Source: a virus. From it: DNA of 64,000 nt. The translations under genes and the position numbers were made by a program. The stretch is taken from IMG/VR virus record IMGVR_UViG_3300027730_000821, positions 1-64,000 of that record; one strand, written 5' to 3'. Of the stretch, positions 26,238-62,144 are shown piece by piece. How positions within the stretch are numbered: position 1 is the first letter of the stretch; the number at the start of each line of letters is the position of its first letter. The notes under the pieces were generated by a model, which saw only the letters and a program-made list of their open reading frames with translations, made no database searches and was not told the DNA's origin.

Positions 26238-26843
26238 TTAGAAAATAATAATCCAATCTTTAATTGAATCTAACTTTTTGCGAAACAGACAGCGCACTTT
26301 CTTAATGTTGATTCCGTACGCAAGTGAAAATTCACCGGGGGTAAGGGTGACTTCTTCACCTGTTCCTGTATTTCTAAAATGATACTGTGTGTGGTTATAT
26401 CTGGGATTATTTTTACCCACCTTACTTCTTTTAGTAAATTTGTCAGCAAAGTCGGTGTTAAAGGACCGGCCTTTGATCCAACCAATCGGTATAGAATCAT
26501 CTTGTTGTATCTTCTTATTAGTTGCCCCGTCTGTTATCCATATAGTACCGAATGAGGGATTGCGTGGCCCGGCGTTTGATATCTTAGCTAACCTAGATTT
26601 CTCTTTCGGGGACAAACTCATTCTTTTAGACATTATAAGGCAGGCTTTAAGATCACCTTGATTCAAATGGATTTGATAATGCTCTTTAATAGAGACACAT
26701 TGTAAGTTTTCAAGCGAGTTATTATTATGGTTACCGTCAATGTGGTGTATTTCGTAACTTCTATCCTCTTCATCAAAAGGAATAGGTCCAAAATGATTCT
26801 CATAAATTAAGCGATGGTACTGAGTACCACAATAAATACACAT
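26238..26843 (-). CDS. HNH homing endonuclease
   Basis: 201 aa. The N-terminal CxxC (MCIYCGTQYHRL) is followed by YEIHHIDGNHNNNSLENLQC, the HNH core (HH, N, H) as in I-HmuI-like enzymes. A C-terminal DNA-recognition region has FGTIWITDGATNKKIQ and GEFSLAYGINIKKVRCLFRKK, which looks like a helix-turn-helix of NUMOD type. It is antisense to its neighbours, between the small DUF6356-like gene and dps. It has its own late promoter and structured leader (26841-26913), shared with two GIY-YIG genes. Confidence 0.8.
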   Translation of the reverse strand: MCIYCGTQYHRLIYENHFGPIPFDEEDRSYEIHHIDGNHNNNSLENLQCVSIKEHYQIHLNQGDLKACLIMSKRMSLSPKEKSRLAKISNAGPRNPSFGTIWITDGATNKKIQQDDSIPIGWIKGRSFNTDFADKFTKRSKVGKNNPRYNHTQYHFRNTGTGEEVTLTPGEFSLAYGINIKKVRCLFRKKLDSIKDWIIIF

Positions 26844-26913
26844 AGCTGATGCTCCTCTATAGCATTAGAGTAGTTGGGATTGCCTAGATCCGCGAACTAC
26901 ATCTATATTTATG
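26841..26913 (-). ncRNA. Structured late leader of homing endonuclease gene, copy A
   Basis: On the minus strand: CATAAATA late promoter (26906-26913), then a two-tier hairpin (26870-26900). The hairpin has P1 GTAGTT/AACTAC and P2 GGAT/ATCC with a 7-nt loop. TCTAAT follows, then P3 ATGCT/AGCAT (26849-26865) holding GAGG in its loop, and the start codon. Copies B (53.8 kb) and C (46.6 kb) share the layout with compensatory changes. Confidence 0.7.
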
Positions 26914-35582: not shown

Positions 35583-35614
35583 CATAAATATATGCTGATA
35601 GGAGTATCAGCATA
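35583..35614 (+). promoter_or_regulatory. Late promoter plus Shine-Dalgarno-sequestering hairpin
   Basis: CATAAATA (35583-35590). A perfect 10-bp stem TATGCTGATA (35591-35600) / TATCAGCATA (35605-35614) has the loop GGAG and its 3' arm reaches the A of the ATG. Late initiation near 35596 cuts the 5' arm in half. Confidence 0.8.
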
Positions 35615-36576
35615 TGATAAAGTGTTTAGAATGTGGAATGGAAACTAGTAGACTACAGTGGACTCATTTTAAGTATAACTGCACAGGTAAATTTTCTAAT
35701 TCCAAAGAATACAAGTTGGCATATCCTCAAGCCGTGTTAGTATCAGCGGATGTTGCCGCAAAAACGGCTATTACAAAAGAGAGATTGATTGAAAAGTATG
35801 GGATAGAAGAGGGTACGATTCGATGGAACCAATACAAAGTTAAACAAGCGGATTCTAATTCATTTGAGTACAAACGTAAAAAACACGGATGGACAGTTGA
35901 ACAGTATAATGAGTATAATTCGTCTAGGGCACAGACCTTAGAAAAAATGATTGCCCGTCATGGGGAAAAGTTAGGTACTACTAAGTGGCTAGCGTATTGT
36001 GAACGACAAGCATACACCAATAGTAAAACCTATTTCGTTAACAAGTATGGAACTGAAGAGGGTACGTCTAGATTTCTACAGTTAAATATCGAAAAAGGTA
36101 GCTCATTTAATCCGCAATTAGTAGCAACTAAATTGGGAATATCCCTTGATGAAGCGGTCACACTAATTTTAAACCGGGTAGTATATCCCGGTAATATTTG
36201 GGGTTCCAACATAGAAAAAGAATTTACGACCATGCTGATTGACAATTATGGATCATTAGAGTATACTACGTTTACTAGACCCTACGGAAGATGGTCTTCT
36301 TTCTTAGGAACATATGTGATATACGATATAAAACACAAAGACTGTATAATTGAATTTAACGGTGATTACTGGCATGCGAATCCGTCTTTATATAAAAATG
36401 ATGCAGTTATTCGGGGTCGTACTGCATTAGAGATTCAAGAATATGATAGTAAAAAATTGAAGACAGCAACTGATCTTGGGTTTCGCACGTATACGGTGTG
36501 GGAATCTGAATTTAAATTAGATAAACAAAATACAATTAATAAGGTGAAAGCATGGATGCAGAGTGGACAAAAATAA
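35614..36576 (+). CDS. Homing endonuclease of split-intein cassette (Vsr-like/EDxHD type)
   Basis: 320 aa, free-standing between the two intein halves. The zinc-like start MIKCLECGMETSRLQWTHF is followed by repeats of the type KYGIEEGTIRWNQYKVKQ and KYGTEEGTSRFLQLN, likely DNA-reading. The C-terminal nuclease region has DIKHKDCIIEFNGDYWHANP and FRTYTVWESEF, as in the Vsr-like I-Bth0305I family described with fractured genes. It would cut intein-less gp43 alleles at the insertion site and spread the cassette. It has its own late promoter with a hairpin over the ribosome site. Its end overlaps the C-terminal gp43 gene by 25 nt. Confidence 0.82.
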   Translation: MIKCLECGMETSRLQWTHFKYNCTGKFSNSKEYKLAYPQAVLVSADVAAKTAITKERLIEKYGIEEGTIRWNQYKVKQADSNSFEYKRKKHGWTVEQYNEYNSSRAQTLEKMIARHGEKLGTTKWLAYCERQAYTNSKTYFVNKYGTEEGTSRFLQLNIEKGSSFNPQLVATKLGISLDEAVTLILNRVVYPGNIWGSNIEKEFTTMLIDNYGSLEYTTFTRPYGRWSSFLGTYVIYDIKHKDCIIEFNGDYWHANPSLYKNDAVIRGRTALEIQEYDSKKLKTATDLGFRTYTVWESEFKLDKQNTINKVKAWMQSGQK

Positions 36577-45866: not shown

Positions 45867-46565
45867 TTATTTATTTCCCGCTATTTTGCATTTATTTCCA
45901 TGCCATCTTTTATAATTTCCAGCATTAAGTCCTGACTTGCCGCAATATTCACACGAACGATTCTTTTGGTTTAGCTTATTTGCCAATGATTTATTTAAAG
46001 AATATTGTTTCTTTCTGGCCTCTGAGATTTTTGTTAAAATTTCAGGGGTCAGTATAGCACCAAATCTAGGATTGTTCTCTCCTTGCGAATGCTTTGTTCG
46101 GACGAACGTTTCTTTTCGTTTTAAATTTGCTGCATCCGATTGCATCAGGTTAACGAATCTATCTACCATAAATTTCCGAAATTCCGGATCCTCTTCCATG
46201 TGCCTCCGCCTACTTTTGTGACTATTCTTCCATGAAGAATCCGAGTAGTTGTCTGTTAAAATTGCTTTACTATCGGATTTATTAAGCCAATCTTCCTTAT
46301 ACACCGCCTTTACTCTTTTTATGTAAGTATGCTCATATAATCTACATTCTGCTGCTGTAGTAAAAGTACGATGAATAACAACTATATCTGGAGGCCCGTA
46401 CTTTTGCCAATGTTCATTGACACTAACTGACGATGTAGTATATCGACCGGTCAGTATGTTCTCTGGGTTAGCTTTTTTGCCGTACTGACAGCCATAATAT
46501 TTGGTATTGGTGCCTCGCCACATAATAAAGTAAGTATAGGGTGTAAAGACAGAATAAATAGACAT
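45867..46565 (-). CDS. GIY-YIG homing endonuclease (Seg-like)
   Basis: 232 aa. The N-terminal YTYFIMWRGTNTKYYGCQYG corresponds to the GIY..YIG strands, with GRYTTSSVSVNEHWQKYGPP and a later Glu (CRLYEHTYIKR). The middle is a basic helical linker with HSQGENNPRFG. The C-terminus has a CEYCG...W-H...C zinc finger. Seg-type enzymes nick intergenic targets and spread by repair. It is antisense between queD and the phosphoribosyltransferase gene. The structured late leader at 46563-46633 controls it. Confidence 0.78.
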   Translation of the reverse strand: MSIYSVFTPYTYFIMWRGTNTKYYGCQYGKKANPENILTGRYTTSSVSVNEHWQKYGPPDIVVIHRTFTTAAECRLYEHTYIKRVKAVYKEDWLNKSDSKAILTDNYSDSSWKNSHKSRRRHMEEDPEFRKFMVDRFVNLMQSDAANLKRKETFVRTKHSQGENNPRFGAILTPEILTKISEARKKQYSLNKSLANKLNQKNRSCEYCGKSGLNAGNYKRWHGNKCKIAGNK

Positions 46566-46633
46566 GCTGGTAGTTCCTTTTCAACTATTAGAGTGAGTGG
46601 GAATGGGAGTTCCGTGACTCACGCTTATTTATC
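46563..46633 (-). ncRNA. Structured late leader of homing endonuclease gene, copy C
   Basis: Minus strand: GATAAATA (46626-46633). Hairpin 46593-46622 has P1 GTGAGT/ACTCAC and P2 GGAA/TTCC with loop CTCCCA. TCTAA follows, then P3 TAGTT/AACTA (46571-46587) with AAGG in its loop, then CAGC and the ATG. All three helices differ in sequence from copies A and B yet stay paired. Confidence 0.7.
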
Positions 46634-46640
46634 TTTTTTC

Positions 46641-46669
46641 TTGACAACCTAACCTAAATAGTATATAAT
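46641..46669 (+). promoter_or_regulatory. Consensus sigma70 promoter
   Basis: TTGACA (46641-46646), 17-nt spacer, TATAAT (46664-46669), a perfect consensus. Confidence 0.85.
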
Positions 46670-52136: not shown

Positions 52137-53153
52137 ATGAATGATGGTGTCAAACGAATTGGTTTCGCATGTAAGTTTGCAGAAATCAATACTAAGGGTG
52201 AGATCGCTAGTGTCGATGGATTCAACACAGGCGGTACCACACTCGCATGGGCAAAACGTCAGAACAACTCACGTGTGGTCGAAGAAAAGATCCTAGATGT
52301 CGCAAAGCGTAACATCCTAAACACTCACGCACTCGTCAAAAAAATTGCGACTCTTCCTGTCGAACTACGCATGTTGCGTATCACCAGTGATATGTTGAGT
52401 TTCTACACGCATCCCGATTATCATTATTTTTGGTCGCGGCAAGATGTGCAAGACAGTCTAGCACGTTGGATGGCTCCGATTGGTGAGACTGCACGCAAGA
52501 ACAGTGTCCGTCTATCATTTCATCCCGATCAATTTGTAGTCCTTGCTAGTGATCGCGAAGAAGTCGTAGAAAACAGTATCCGAGAATTCGAATATCATGT
52601 TGACATGGCACGTTGGATGGGCTATGGCAAGACTTTTCAGGACATGAAGATCAATGTTCATATCAGTGGTCGTCAGGGCCCCGACGGTATCAAGAAGGTA
52701 ATGTCTCGACTAAGCCCCGAGGCTCGTAATTGCATCACTATCGAGAATGACGAGATGACTTGGGGTATCGATAGCAGTCTAGAACTCGCTGATACCTGCG
52801 CTCTCGTACTAGATATCCATCATCACTATGTAATGACTGGTGAATATATCGAACCCAATGACGACCGTATCAAGCGCGTGATCGATAGCTGGCGTGGTGT
52901 ACGTCCTGTCATTCATTACAGTGTAAGTCGTGAAGAATATTTGTCATCACATCTTACTAATGAATTGCCTAACCTTCAACTTCTGCTAGAACAAGGGTTG
53001 AACAAGCAGAAGTTGCGGGCACATTCTGACTATATGTGGAATAAAGCAGTCAATGATTGGGCTAAAGGGCACTGGGATTGGGCAGATGTTATGGTGGAGG
53101 CAAAGGCCAAGAACCTAGCTAGCTTTAGATTGTATGATTATTGGAAGAGCTAA
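52137..53153 (+). CDS. uvdE: UV damage endonuclease UvdE/UvsE
   Basis: 338 aa. RIGFACKFAEI, LRMLRITSDMLSFYTHPD, VRLSFHPDQFVVLASDREEV, INVHISGRQGPDGI, ITIENDEMTWG and LVLDIHHHYVMTG follow the TIM-barrel UvdE family, with the metal-binding His and Glu residues. The enzyme nicks 5' of UV photoproducts. The 3' end overlaps the antisense GIY-YIG gene by 39 nt, suggesting the endonuclease integrated right at the uvdE stop. No Shine-Dalgarno is obvious. Confidence 0.9.
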   Translation: MNDGVKRIGFACKFAEINTKGEIASVDGFNTGGTTLAWAKRQNNSRVVEEKILDVAKRNILNTHALVKKIATLPVELRMLRITSDMLSFYTHPDYHYFWSRQDVQDSLARWMAPIGETARKNSVRLSFHPDQFVVLASDREEVVENSIREFEYHVDMARWMGYGKTFQDMKINVHISGRQGPDGIKKVMSRLSPEARNCITIENDEMTWGIDSSLELADTCALVLDIHHHYVMTGEYIEPNDDRIKRVIDSWRGVRPVIHYSVSREEYLSSHLTNELPNLQLLLEQGLNKQKLRAHSDYMWNKAVNDWAKGHWDWADVMVEAKAKNLASFRLYDYWKS

Positions 53154-53783
53154 ATTATATAACTCTGTTTCTTTCTTTATCTTACATATAACGCCAGTAG
53201 AGATACCTGTTAGTTTTGAAATTTCTCGTATTCGGTGATTGCTTTTTTCTAGCAAATCAAGTGCTAACCTTAGATTTTCGCCCCTGTTTTTATATTTTGC
53301 TACTATAATAGATAATTTTCTCTTGTCGGTGCAGGATATTTTTTTCCCATACATTCCGTTCCTTTCGCCTTTTTTAGCTTTTGATAAATTTTTACGCCAA
53401 ACATCATTCCTAGGAATGCCTGCTAATGATTCTGATCTTTTCTTTAAGGTATCTTCACTTGGTTTCCAGCCTAATTTAGACGGAGGTTTTGTTCCGCCTT
53501 TATTAGCATTCCATCCTATGTTTTTTTCAGGTCTTAGTATTTCCTCTTGTCTGTAACAATTTTCTTTGGTGTCGGTCAACAATATTGTTTGGATTATTTT
53601 ATCTTGATGTTTTTTGAGGACTCTACCGAAATAAGGATTTTTGTCGTTGCGGTTTTTAGAATCATTCTTATGCTCGTAAAGTCGTCTGGCTGGGTTATTA
53701 GAAACGCCTATGTACCCTTCCTTAGTGTAGTCAGTATGCTCTGGAAGATGAATCCAATAAAGATGGTGGGTATAAATAGTCAT
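53115..53783 (-). CDS. GIY-YIG homing endonuclease
   Basis: 222 aa from the ATG at 53783. A start 21 nt upstream would contain the Shine-Dalgarno agagga of this start and is rejected. YTHHLYWIHLPEHTDYTKEG then YIGVSNNPARRLYEHK forms the GIY-YIG core with the conserved Arg. NPYFGRVLKKHQDK and ENCYRQEEILRP (Glu) complete it. The rest is NUMOD-like and helix-turn-helix DNA recognition (PSKLGWKPSEDTLKKRSESL, GMYGKKIS, REISKLTGISTGVICKIKK). It lies against the uvdE 3' end and uses structured leader copy B. Confidence 0.82.
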   Translation of the reverse strand: MTIYTHHLYWIHLPEHTDYTKEGYIGVSNNPARRLYEHKNDSKNRNDKNPYFGRVLKKHQDKIIQTILLTDTKENCYRQEEILRPEKNIGWNANKGGTKPPSKLGWKPSEDTLKKRSESLAGIPRNDVWRKNLSKAKKGERNGMYGKKISCTDKRKLSIIVAKYKNRGENLRLALDLLEKSNHRIREISKLTGISTGVICKIKKETELYNLALPIIIQSKAS

Positions 53784-53852
53784 GCTGATCGCTCCTCTTA
53801 GCATTAGAGTAGTTGGGTATTTGCAGTACCGCGAACTACATCTTTATTTATC
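53781..53852 (-). ncRNA. Structured late leader of homing endonuclease gene, copy B
   Basis: Minus strand: GATAAATA (53845-53852). Hairpin 53809-53839 has P1 GTAGTT/AACTAC and P2 GGTA/TACC with loop CTGCAAA. TCTAAT follows, then P3 GCT/AGC (53791-53802) with AAGAGG in its loop, then GATCAGC and the ATG. P2 differs from copy A (GGAT/ATCC) by compensatory changes. Confidence 0.7.
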
Positions 53853-53859
53853 TTTTTGA

Positions 53860-53887
53860 TTGACAACATATATACTATTATGATAGT
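53860..53887 (+). promoter_or_regulatory. Sigma70-like promoter
   Basis: TTGACA (53860-53865) followed after 16 nt by GATAGT (53882-53887); TATTAT and TAGTAT nearby are alternatives. The Shine-Dalgarno gaaagg precedes the ATG at 53913. Confidence 0.6.
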
Positions 53888-53912
53888 ATACATATATTAA
53901 GAAAGGTAATTA

Positions 53913-61260: not shown

Positions 61261-61294
61261 GGCATAAATAACTATTATAGGAGATTATTATGCC
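61261..61294 (+). promoter_or_regulatory. Late promoter inside a start-codon-sequestering hairpin
   Basis: CATAAATA (61263-61270). GGCATAA (61261-61267) pairs with TTATGCC (61288-61294), extended to 10 bp with one bulged A. The loop holds AGGAG (61279-61283) and the ATG (61290) is in the 3' arm. Late initiation near 61276 removes the 5' arm. Confidence 0.7.
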
Positions 61295-62144
61295 GGTATG
61301 TCATATATGTGGAAAAATAGTGAGGAACATTGACTATCACCTAATAGGTGAACAGTATAAGGATAAGATCAGTGATATGATACTAGCAGGATATTCTATC
61401 TTGTACCTATCCAAGAATTCGTTGACCTTATTCGGAGAGAAAATATCATATGACATGATATCTACAACCTGCAAGCACCACGGTATTAAAATACCCAGTT
61501 TAAAAGATACTGCAAACAGTAGAATAACACGAGATTTGTATAAGTCTACTGTAGAAAAAACATATGGTCATGGAATAACCAATGTATCTCAATCCAAACT
61601 AATCAAAGAAAAGAAAAATAATACAAACTTAGATAGGTATGGAGTAATAAATCCGTTTCAACGAGAAGAAGTAAAGCAAAAATCAAAAGAAACCCTATAT
61701 AAAAAATACGGAGTTCTTAACCCAGTTGAACTGCCATAGTATACCAAAAACAATGGGAGATTCTCTAAACCTCACAAAAAAATATCAGATTTCCTACATA
61801 CTCTGACTATAGAACACGACAATGACAAAGCTGGTCTATTTAGAAAATTTAATGACGAGTTAAAAAGAACGTATTCACCTATCCCTGATATTTTTATTCC
61901 TGATAAAAATGTCGTAATAGAAATATTCGGTGATAGATGGCACATGAATCCAAGAATATACCACGAGTCTGATGTTGTCGTGTTTTTTGACGGTCCGTGT
62001 ACGGCCGCTGAGGTCTGGTTAGGTGATGAAATACGAAATAACCATATCCGCTATTTTGGGGTTGACATAATTGTAATTTGGGAATATGATATCAAATATC
62101 ACTTTGAAGACATCAAACTAATGCTAACTGAAAGATTGACATGA
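61290..62144 (+). pseudogene. Homing endonuclease of ligase split-intein cassette, interrupted by one amber codon
   Basis: The reading frame runs from ATG 61290 (MPVCHICGKIVRNIDYHLIG) to TAG at 61738-61740 after KKYGVLNPVELP, then continues in the same frame YTKNNGRFSKPHKKISDFLH to 62144. The second part holds the nuclease core IPDIFIPDKNVVIEIFGDRW then HMNPRIYHE and RYFGVDIIVIWEYDI, as in Vsr-like endonucleases. The stop removes the active site. Other genes here also end in TAG, so amber is not reassigned. It is likely a recent nonsense mutation. Start control is the same hairpin type as in the gp43 cassette. Confidence 0.8.

Follow-up and report, generated by a model that had tools for sequence, protein, structure and literature searches.

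Few selfish genes of phages are as common as those of homing endonucleases. What is known of the control of their toxicity, and of how nucleases of new types gain regulation, comes mostly from phage T4, one gene at a time. In IS10, the RNA-OUT/RNA-IN system uses a short stable antisense RNA, transcribed from an outward-facing promoter that lies within the 5′ end of the mobile-element gene.

Hairpins of the sense strand restrain I-TevI and mobE, and a similar arrangement has been reported for segB (PMC2988022). SymR and the EcoRI antisense RNAs are examples of reverse promoters that restrain toxic or DNA-cutting products (PMC3874152).

The stretch of DNA analyzed here (the window) comprises positions 1 to 64,000 of IMG/VR virus record IMGVR_UViG_3300027730_000821. 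Three of its homing endonuclease genes are preceded by one exchangeable 80-base module, which is found on unrelated nuclease families in many uncultured phages and has its selected fold on the strand antisense to the gene. This suggests that a small antisense RNA might curb these potentially harmful enzymes. The element would then represent a portable two-way late control module of free-standing homing endonuclease genes.

The element and its endonuclease partners

All three leaders proved real. They lie on the minus strand and contain the parts listed in the sequence-only reading: P1, a 3-nt/1-nt internal loop, a 4-bp P2, TCTAAT, a Shine-Dalgarno hairpin (P3), CAGC, and the ATG. They start at 53839, 46622, and 26900, with P1 arms GTAGTT/AACTAC, GTGAGT/ACTCAC, and GTAGTT/AACTAC and internal loops CGC/C, CAC/C, and CGC/C, respectively. 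When the window is scanned for P1-CRC-P2 plus TCTAA, exactly these leaders are returned, and the covariance model identifies the same three and none other. On the folding strand (plus, antisense to the endonucleases), the whole elements span 53772 to 53851 (77.1 bits with covariance model R1), 46554 to 46632 (66.3 bits), and 26832 to 26912 (88.2 bits).

Read on the minus strand, the 53-kb element begins with the motif of the late promoter for the endonuclease mRNA, ATAAATA (53845 to 53851), and the 5′ arm of P1, GTAGTT (53834 to 53839), with the predicted mRNA start at 53839. The CRC side of the internal loop (53831 to 53833), P2 (GGTA/TACC) with its own loop (53816 to 53830), the single C of the internal loop (53815), and the 3′ arm of P1, AACTAC (53809 to 53814), come next. 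The P3 hairpin, TCTAAT...CAGC (53784 to 53808), does hold the Shine-Dalgarno AGAGGAG (53791 to 53797) in its loop and 3′ arm, as proposed, but is longer than originally described, running from (T)CTA plus 5 nt to 5 nt plus CAG(C). The module, too, extends farther than the sequence-only reading had it: the conserved unit continues past the start codon to a TATTTAT in codons 2 to 4, which on the plus strand is a reverse-facing late-promoter motif, ATAAATA (53772 to 53778). A perfect hairpin that exposes a Shine-Dalgarno in its loop, like P3, also follows ATAAATA at an ordinary late gene of the window (35584 to 35616, plus strand; TATGCTGATA-GGAG-TATCAGCATA).

The gene at 53 kb (53115 to 53783, minus strand) encodes a homing endonuclease with GIY-YIG and NUMOD3 domains (Pfam PF01541 and PF07460). 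Its start codon is the ATG at 53783-53781, versus the in-frame ATG at 53804 chosen by ORF callers. Residues 165 to 204 of this protein match a sigma-factor profile (phrog_8794; E, 0.002) and probably represent a helix-turn-helix DNA-binding domain. The HNH_3 homing endonuclease gene is at 26238 to 26843 (minus strand; Pfam PF13392; E, 2.8e-13). The third gene, at 45867 to 46565 (minus strand), had been called GIY-YIG as well; its 45.9-kb protein has no Pfam match, and its assignment as an endonuclease rests on weak PHROG matches (endonuclease 27406 and homing endonuclease 655). A fourth endonuclease-like ORF (61290 to 61736, plus strand; phrog_3339) has no element, so not every endonuclease carries one.

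Searches of IMG/VR show a large family. The pattern TAAATA-N-CRCGG-N-CCC-N6-TCTAAT is matched by at least 120 loci, compared with about 5 estimated by chance; among the matches listed, all but one have P1 arms that can pair at no fewer than 4 of 6 positions, and nearly all at 5 or 6. A second, promoter-blind scan asked only for the commonest P1 and loop (GTAGTTCGCGG...CCCAACTAC) and gave 142 distinct matches in the loci examined, with TAAATA just upstream in 140 and TA[TC]TTA just past the start codon in 141. Three pattern scans combined yielded at least 222 distinct copies parsed from IMG/VR contigs. The covariance model, built from 46 copies and run over the whole contigs of 38 viral records, detected the element in all 38, with up to 15 copies in one contig.

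The partners of the element are homing endonucleases. All 60 matches fetched from this search of 38 records, mostly from its low-scoring end, precede ORFs of the homing endonuclease type (GIY-YIG, HNH, and NUMOD); these ORFs lie on the strand opposite to the folding strand, and a few are truncated. Among ORFs of at least 100 aa, 254 of 258 fall into one cluster, joined via common nuclease and NUMOD parts. The leading Pfam families in 143 representatives are NUMOD3 (52), HNH (17), HNH_3 (14), HNH_5 (12), SegE_GIY-YIG (10), and GIY-YIG (9); in the same set, the PHROG homing endonuclease families 314 and 655 have 82 and 62 matches, respectively. Two copies (L100 and L148) have no endonuclease behind them; they are missing P3/CAGC or TATTTAT and appear to be remnants. 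In the latter (L148:143-1900), the copy, minus TATTTAT, is directly followed by the terminase large subunit gene, so that this probable remnant of a lost endonuclease would now lead a host gene.

That the leader is a portable module common to unrelated nuclease families, as had been suggested, is upheld by these 60 matches, by the covariation described below, by swapped leader halves, and by empty sites. Six 45-nt leader halves recur, identical in sequence, upstream of HNH as well as GIY-YIG genes (L038 and L085 are an example). At the 53-kb site, the two flanking host genes abut in relatives L360 to L363 and L368, with neither endonuclease nor element, whereas relatives L366, L392, and L436 encode related or different endonucleases there, each with the element. 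In 80 relative loci (569 kb), the model matches only such endonuclease insertions (five loci). Different ORFs are inserted between the flanking genes, which makes this site an insertion hot spot. In L375, L401, L402, L406, and L438, the same intergenic site is occupied by different ORFs of 175 to 351 aa without the element.

Among leaders with unrelated ORFs, those of the same genome are slightly more similar to each other than those of different genomes (0.644 versus 0.602; permutation P = 0.018), which reflects gene conversion or is a hint of action in trans. The five copies fetched from genome G022 (L314, L315, L329, L333, and L346) have an unusual P3 stem, GAAC/GTTC, despite their differing ORFs, and the copies of G025 likewise favor P1 GCGATT.

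No earlier description of the element was found in the literature searched. Rfam 15 has no family at gathering score in the whole window, and the best low-threshold match for 131 bases around the 53-kb element (E up to 10) is a chance one. Nothing places the element among the HEARO or OMEGA guide RNAs: there is no Rfam match in the window, and its partners in Pfam are HNH, GIY-YIG, and NUMOD3. DNA similarity searches of the leader against cultured phages (INPHARED) gave short chance matches only; the match to the HNH gene plus leader begins inside the gene, with no leader matched. The relatives of the HNH ORF in cultured phages show only about 40% protein identity (60 to 63% over the first 69 aa). 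The commonest P1 form has no exact counterpart in GTDB genomes.

The folding strand

The leader had been read as a structured leader of the endonuclease mRNA. This was not borne out, as the wobble pairs place the selected fold on the opposite strand. The paired positions as such covary strongly in alignments of 46 and 75 copies. In the antisense reading, the 46-copy alignment is paired in 98.7% of cells, with 14 of 26 pairs doubly changed (118 cells); the 75-copy alignment, which was fitted to the antisense model, is paired in 98.3%, with 15 of 19 pairs doubly changed (267 cells). Neither number of doubly changed cells was reached in any of 500 shuffles, and sliding the partners by one base lowers the pairing to about 36%.

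When 222 distinct copies are read in the sense direction, P1 contains 27 A·C mismatches versus 1 G·U pair, and P3 contains more than 200 A·C and no G·U; one A·C in P3, between TCTA and CAGC, is near-invariant across copies. Counted as distinct stems, P1 has 11 with A·C versus 1 with G·U, and P3 has A·C in 29 of 49 and G·U in none. A sense A·C becomes G·U in the antisense strand (as does the invariant A·C of P3 in the 53-kb element), and sense G·U is almost absent; the selected fold thus belongs to the strand opposite the endonuclease mRNA. The parser scored sense G·U as paired and A·C as unpaired, a bias that runs counter to this result. Among the 75 copies (whole-contig matches), the antisense reading has 144 G·U versus 10 A·C. 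The asymmetry is the same for HNH and GIY genes and for copies with divergent or codirectional upstream genes.

Several details of the fold become regular on the antisense strand. The central position of the internal loop is a real pair there (GC in 56, GU in 13, and AU in 5), formed by a G and the middle Y between two bulged G's. The antisense P3 continues through CUG/UAG, with C-G replaced by U-A in TTTA/CAAC copies. The antisense fold is more stable in 185 of 206 copies, by a mean of -3.7 kcal/mol compared with -2.0 in the shuffled control; part of this stability is due to base composition. Folding energy alone would not have been convincing for the leaders, the z-scores of the three in the window being -0.75 to -1.80.

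The copies with a 3-nt promoter spacer provide a separate argument. Their predicted mRNA start lies two bases inside P1, so that the first two P1 pairs are upstream of it; these are paired in 41 of 41 copies (37 GC and 4 AT), which the mRNA cannot explain. Location of the selected fold on the strand antisense to the endonuclease is the firm part of this analysis, and we hold it with high confidence.

Facing late-promoter motifs and a predicted antisense RNA

The late-gene promoter motif of the window is ATAAATA, which lies about 20 nt ahead of many of its late genes. As in the I-TevI class, this motif is located directly upstream of the endonuclease start: TAAATA is found in 219 of 224 copies, 5 nt (165 copies) or 3 nt (42 copies) before P1. 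Its reversed counterpart, TA[TC]TTA, lies 5 nt past CAGC in 175 of 207 copies, though the place of the start codon within the spacer differs. In 31 of 206 copies, TATTTAT is outside the usual reading frame (MYL and MIF versus MxIY). Since all three frames retain the motif, DNA or RNA is conserved rather than protein; a conserved protein N terminus is thereby ruled out as its cause. At the motif level, the start of the regulated gene therefore contains a promoter of reverse orientation, at fixed spacing and independent of frame.

Both promoters are at a similar distance from a hairpin base that is preceded by T. The base before the predicted antisense start is T even where it is outside the ATG (31 of 31). 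This T/G is not shared by other late promoters of the window, and the start is therefore assigned from spacing.

In the proposed mechanism, the forward late promoter would start the endonuclease mRNA at the base of P1 or close to it, and the reversed one, in codons 2 to 4, would start an antisense RNA at the base of P3. For the 53-kb element, this RNA is predicted at 53784 to 53851 (plus strand), from a G opposite the C of CAGC through the P3as and P1as hairpins to a U-rich tail (ACUUUUAUUUAU). In a rule-based scan of the window element, no terminator was called after P1as despite this tail. Of the two hairpins of the predicted RNA, P3as would expose the anti-Shine-Dalgarno CUCCUU in the loop, and P1as/P2as would have the two bulged G's; the RNA would be complementary to the whole 5′ leader, including, by coordinates, the Shine-Dalgarno. 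By pairing with the mRNA, it might block ribosome binding and keep the nuclease late and at a low level, and the A·C mismatches would weaken the hairpins of the mRNA but not the stable fold of the antisense RNA. Such a transcript likely exists; repression of endonuclease translation by it is our best guess. Facing late promoters with an antisense RNA that holds endonuclease translation down appear to be the best explanation of the element, with a probability of about one half.

The facing promoters also constitute a 7-bp inverted repeat, P0, which might itself be a stem, with a predicted mean pairing of 0.60 in the antisense and 0.48 in the sense strand. Pairing of ATAAATA with TATTTAT is an automatic outcome of two facing promoters and only moderately probable. 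P0 was not accepted as an established stem; 10 of 46 copies lack its outermost pair.

The antisense strand might instead serve as the 5′ leader of the neighboring host gene, with an outward late (plus sigma70) promoter and a protective 5′ hairpin keeping that gene expressed. In 128 of 214 copies the upstream gene is divergent, at a median gap of 54 nt, so that the same antisense RNA would also lead the next host gene. About 10 nt beyond the element, 36% of divergent copies have an outward TTGACA-N17-TATAAT (score of at least 10), compared with 2.5% of shuffles. Such sigma70 promoters are found at 53860 to 53889 (plus strand; TTGACA...TAGTAT, toward gene 53913) and, by the 45.9-kb element, at 46641 to 46669 (plus strand; TTGACA-N17-TATAAT, also seen at the near-identical locus L069). 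The former has no counterpart in the empty-site relatives, as expected if cassettes restore expression behind them. However, the other 86 copies are codirectional and abut the upstream stop codon; their antisense RNA would lead no gene, yet they show the same strand asymmetry, so the fold serves not only the neighbor gene, and all but 3 of them keep the reverse promoter. Some divergent neighbors already own a late promoter (26922 in the window). A neighbor-gene leader as the sole function is not favored, codirectional copies being equally conserved, and this explanation is unlikely overall. The sequence-only view, that the hairpins act in the endonuclease mRNA and sequester the Shine-Dalgarno in the style of I-TevI, gene e, or mobE, follows a logic established for I-TevI of T4 and for mobE of Aeh1, and put forward for segB as well (PMC2988022). 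It agrees with the position of the Shine-Dalgarno within the P3 loop and arm, and P0 can form in sense read-through RNA, at the pairing given above; possibly, ATAAATA pairs with TATTTAT there, so that only late transcripts are translated. But the sense pairs decay to A·C and almost never to G·U, so that no selected sense hairpin of the I-TevI kind is found, and P1 and P3, being downstream of the late promoter, are in late as well as read-through mRNAs. In L162 and L174, whose forward promoter is broken, TATTTAT has no compensating change. We regard action in the mRNA as quite improbable.

Selection for folding on one strand only, the two bulged G's, and the exchange of leaders between unrelated ORFs would also suit a single-stranded DNA fold, recognized by a protein for cassette movement or recombination, as in integron attC sites or IS200 ends. 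With the element confined to the 5′ end, no transposase or integrase noticed in passing, fixed 5-nt spacings that better suit transcription, and ordinary homing plus homologous recombination sufficient for the exchange, this is the least probable of the readings. The antisense RNA could also regulate other endonuclease copies or phage mRNAs in trans, either by binding a protein or as an anti-Shine-Dalgarno; the multiple copies per contig (up to 15), the likeness of leaders within a genome, and the CUCCUU loop would agree with this. That likeness, however, is small and explained by gene conversion, while pairing in cis requires none, making trans action very unlikely. A network in which up to 15 cassettes of a single jumbo phage would, through their antisense RNAs and genome-specific shared leaders, silence one another as well as endonucleases of coinfecting phages is a speculative idea with a slim chance of being correct; if true, it would amount to mutual exclusion or immunity among selfish genes.

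Comparison with known systems

If antisense control in cis is confirmed, the regulation of phage endonucleases would resemble that of type I toxins, with a ready-made control cassette open to any incoming nuclease ORF. The covariance model is also a means of finding such genes.

In layout, the predicted antisense RNA resembles IS10 RNA-OUT, whose target is a transposase, not a homing endonuclease. The type I toxin-antitoxin system SymE-SymR shares with the predicted module a reverse promoter in the 5′ part of the gene, and SymR, like the predicted RNA, spans the leader with its 5′ end over the Shine-Dalgarno (PMC3874152). However, SymE is a single chromosomal gene, whereas the element is found on many unrelated phage endonucleases and its antisense RNA is predicted. 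In EcoRI and Eco29kI, an antisense RNA and reverse promoters restrain the gene of a DNA-cutting enzyme, as in the proposed module (PMC3874152), but these are restriction-modification operons without a conserved two-hairpin element. The T4-type late hairpin leaders (I-TevI, I-TevII, I-TevIII, segB, Aeh1 mobE, and gene e) share with the element a late promoter just upstream and an RNA structure at the ribosome-binding site, and all but gene e are likewise homing endonuclease genes (PMC2988022 and PMC3014915). Each of those hairpins was described for its own gene; they arise in read-through mRNA of the sense strand, and their 5′ arm contains the late promoter. In contrast, the element is one conserved family on unrelated genes, with a selected antisense fold that has its own promoter motif.
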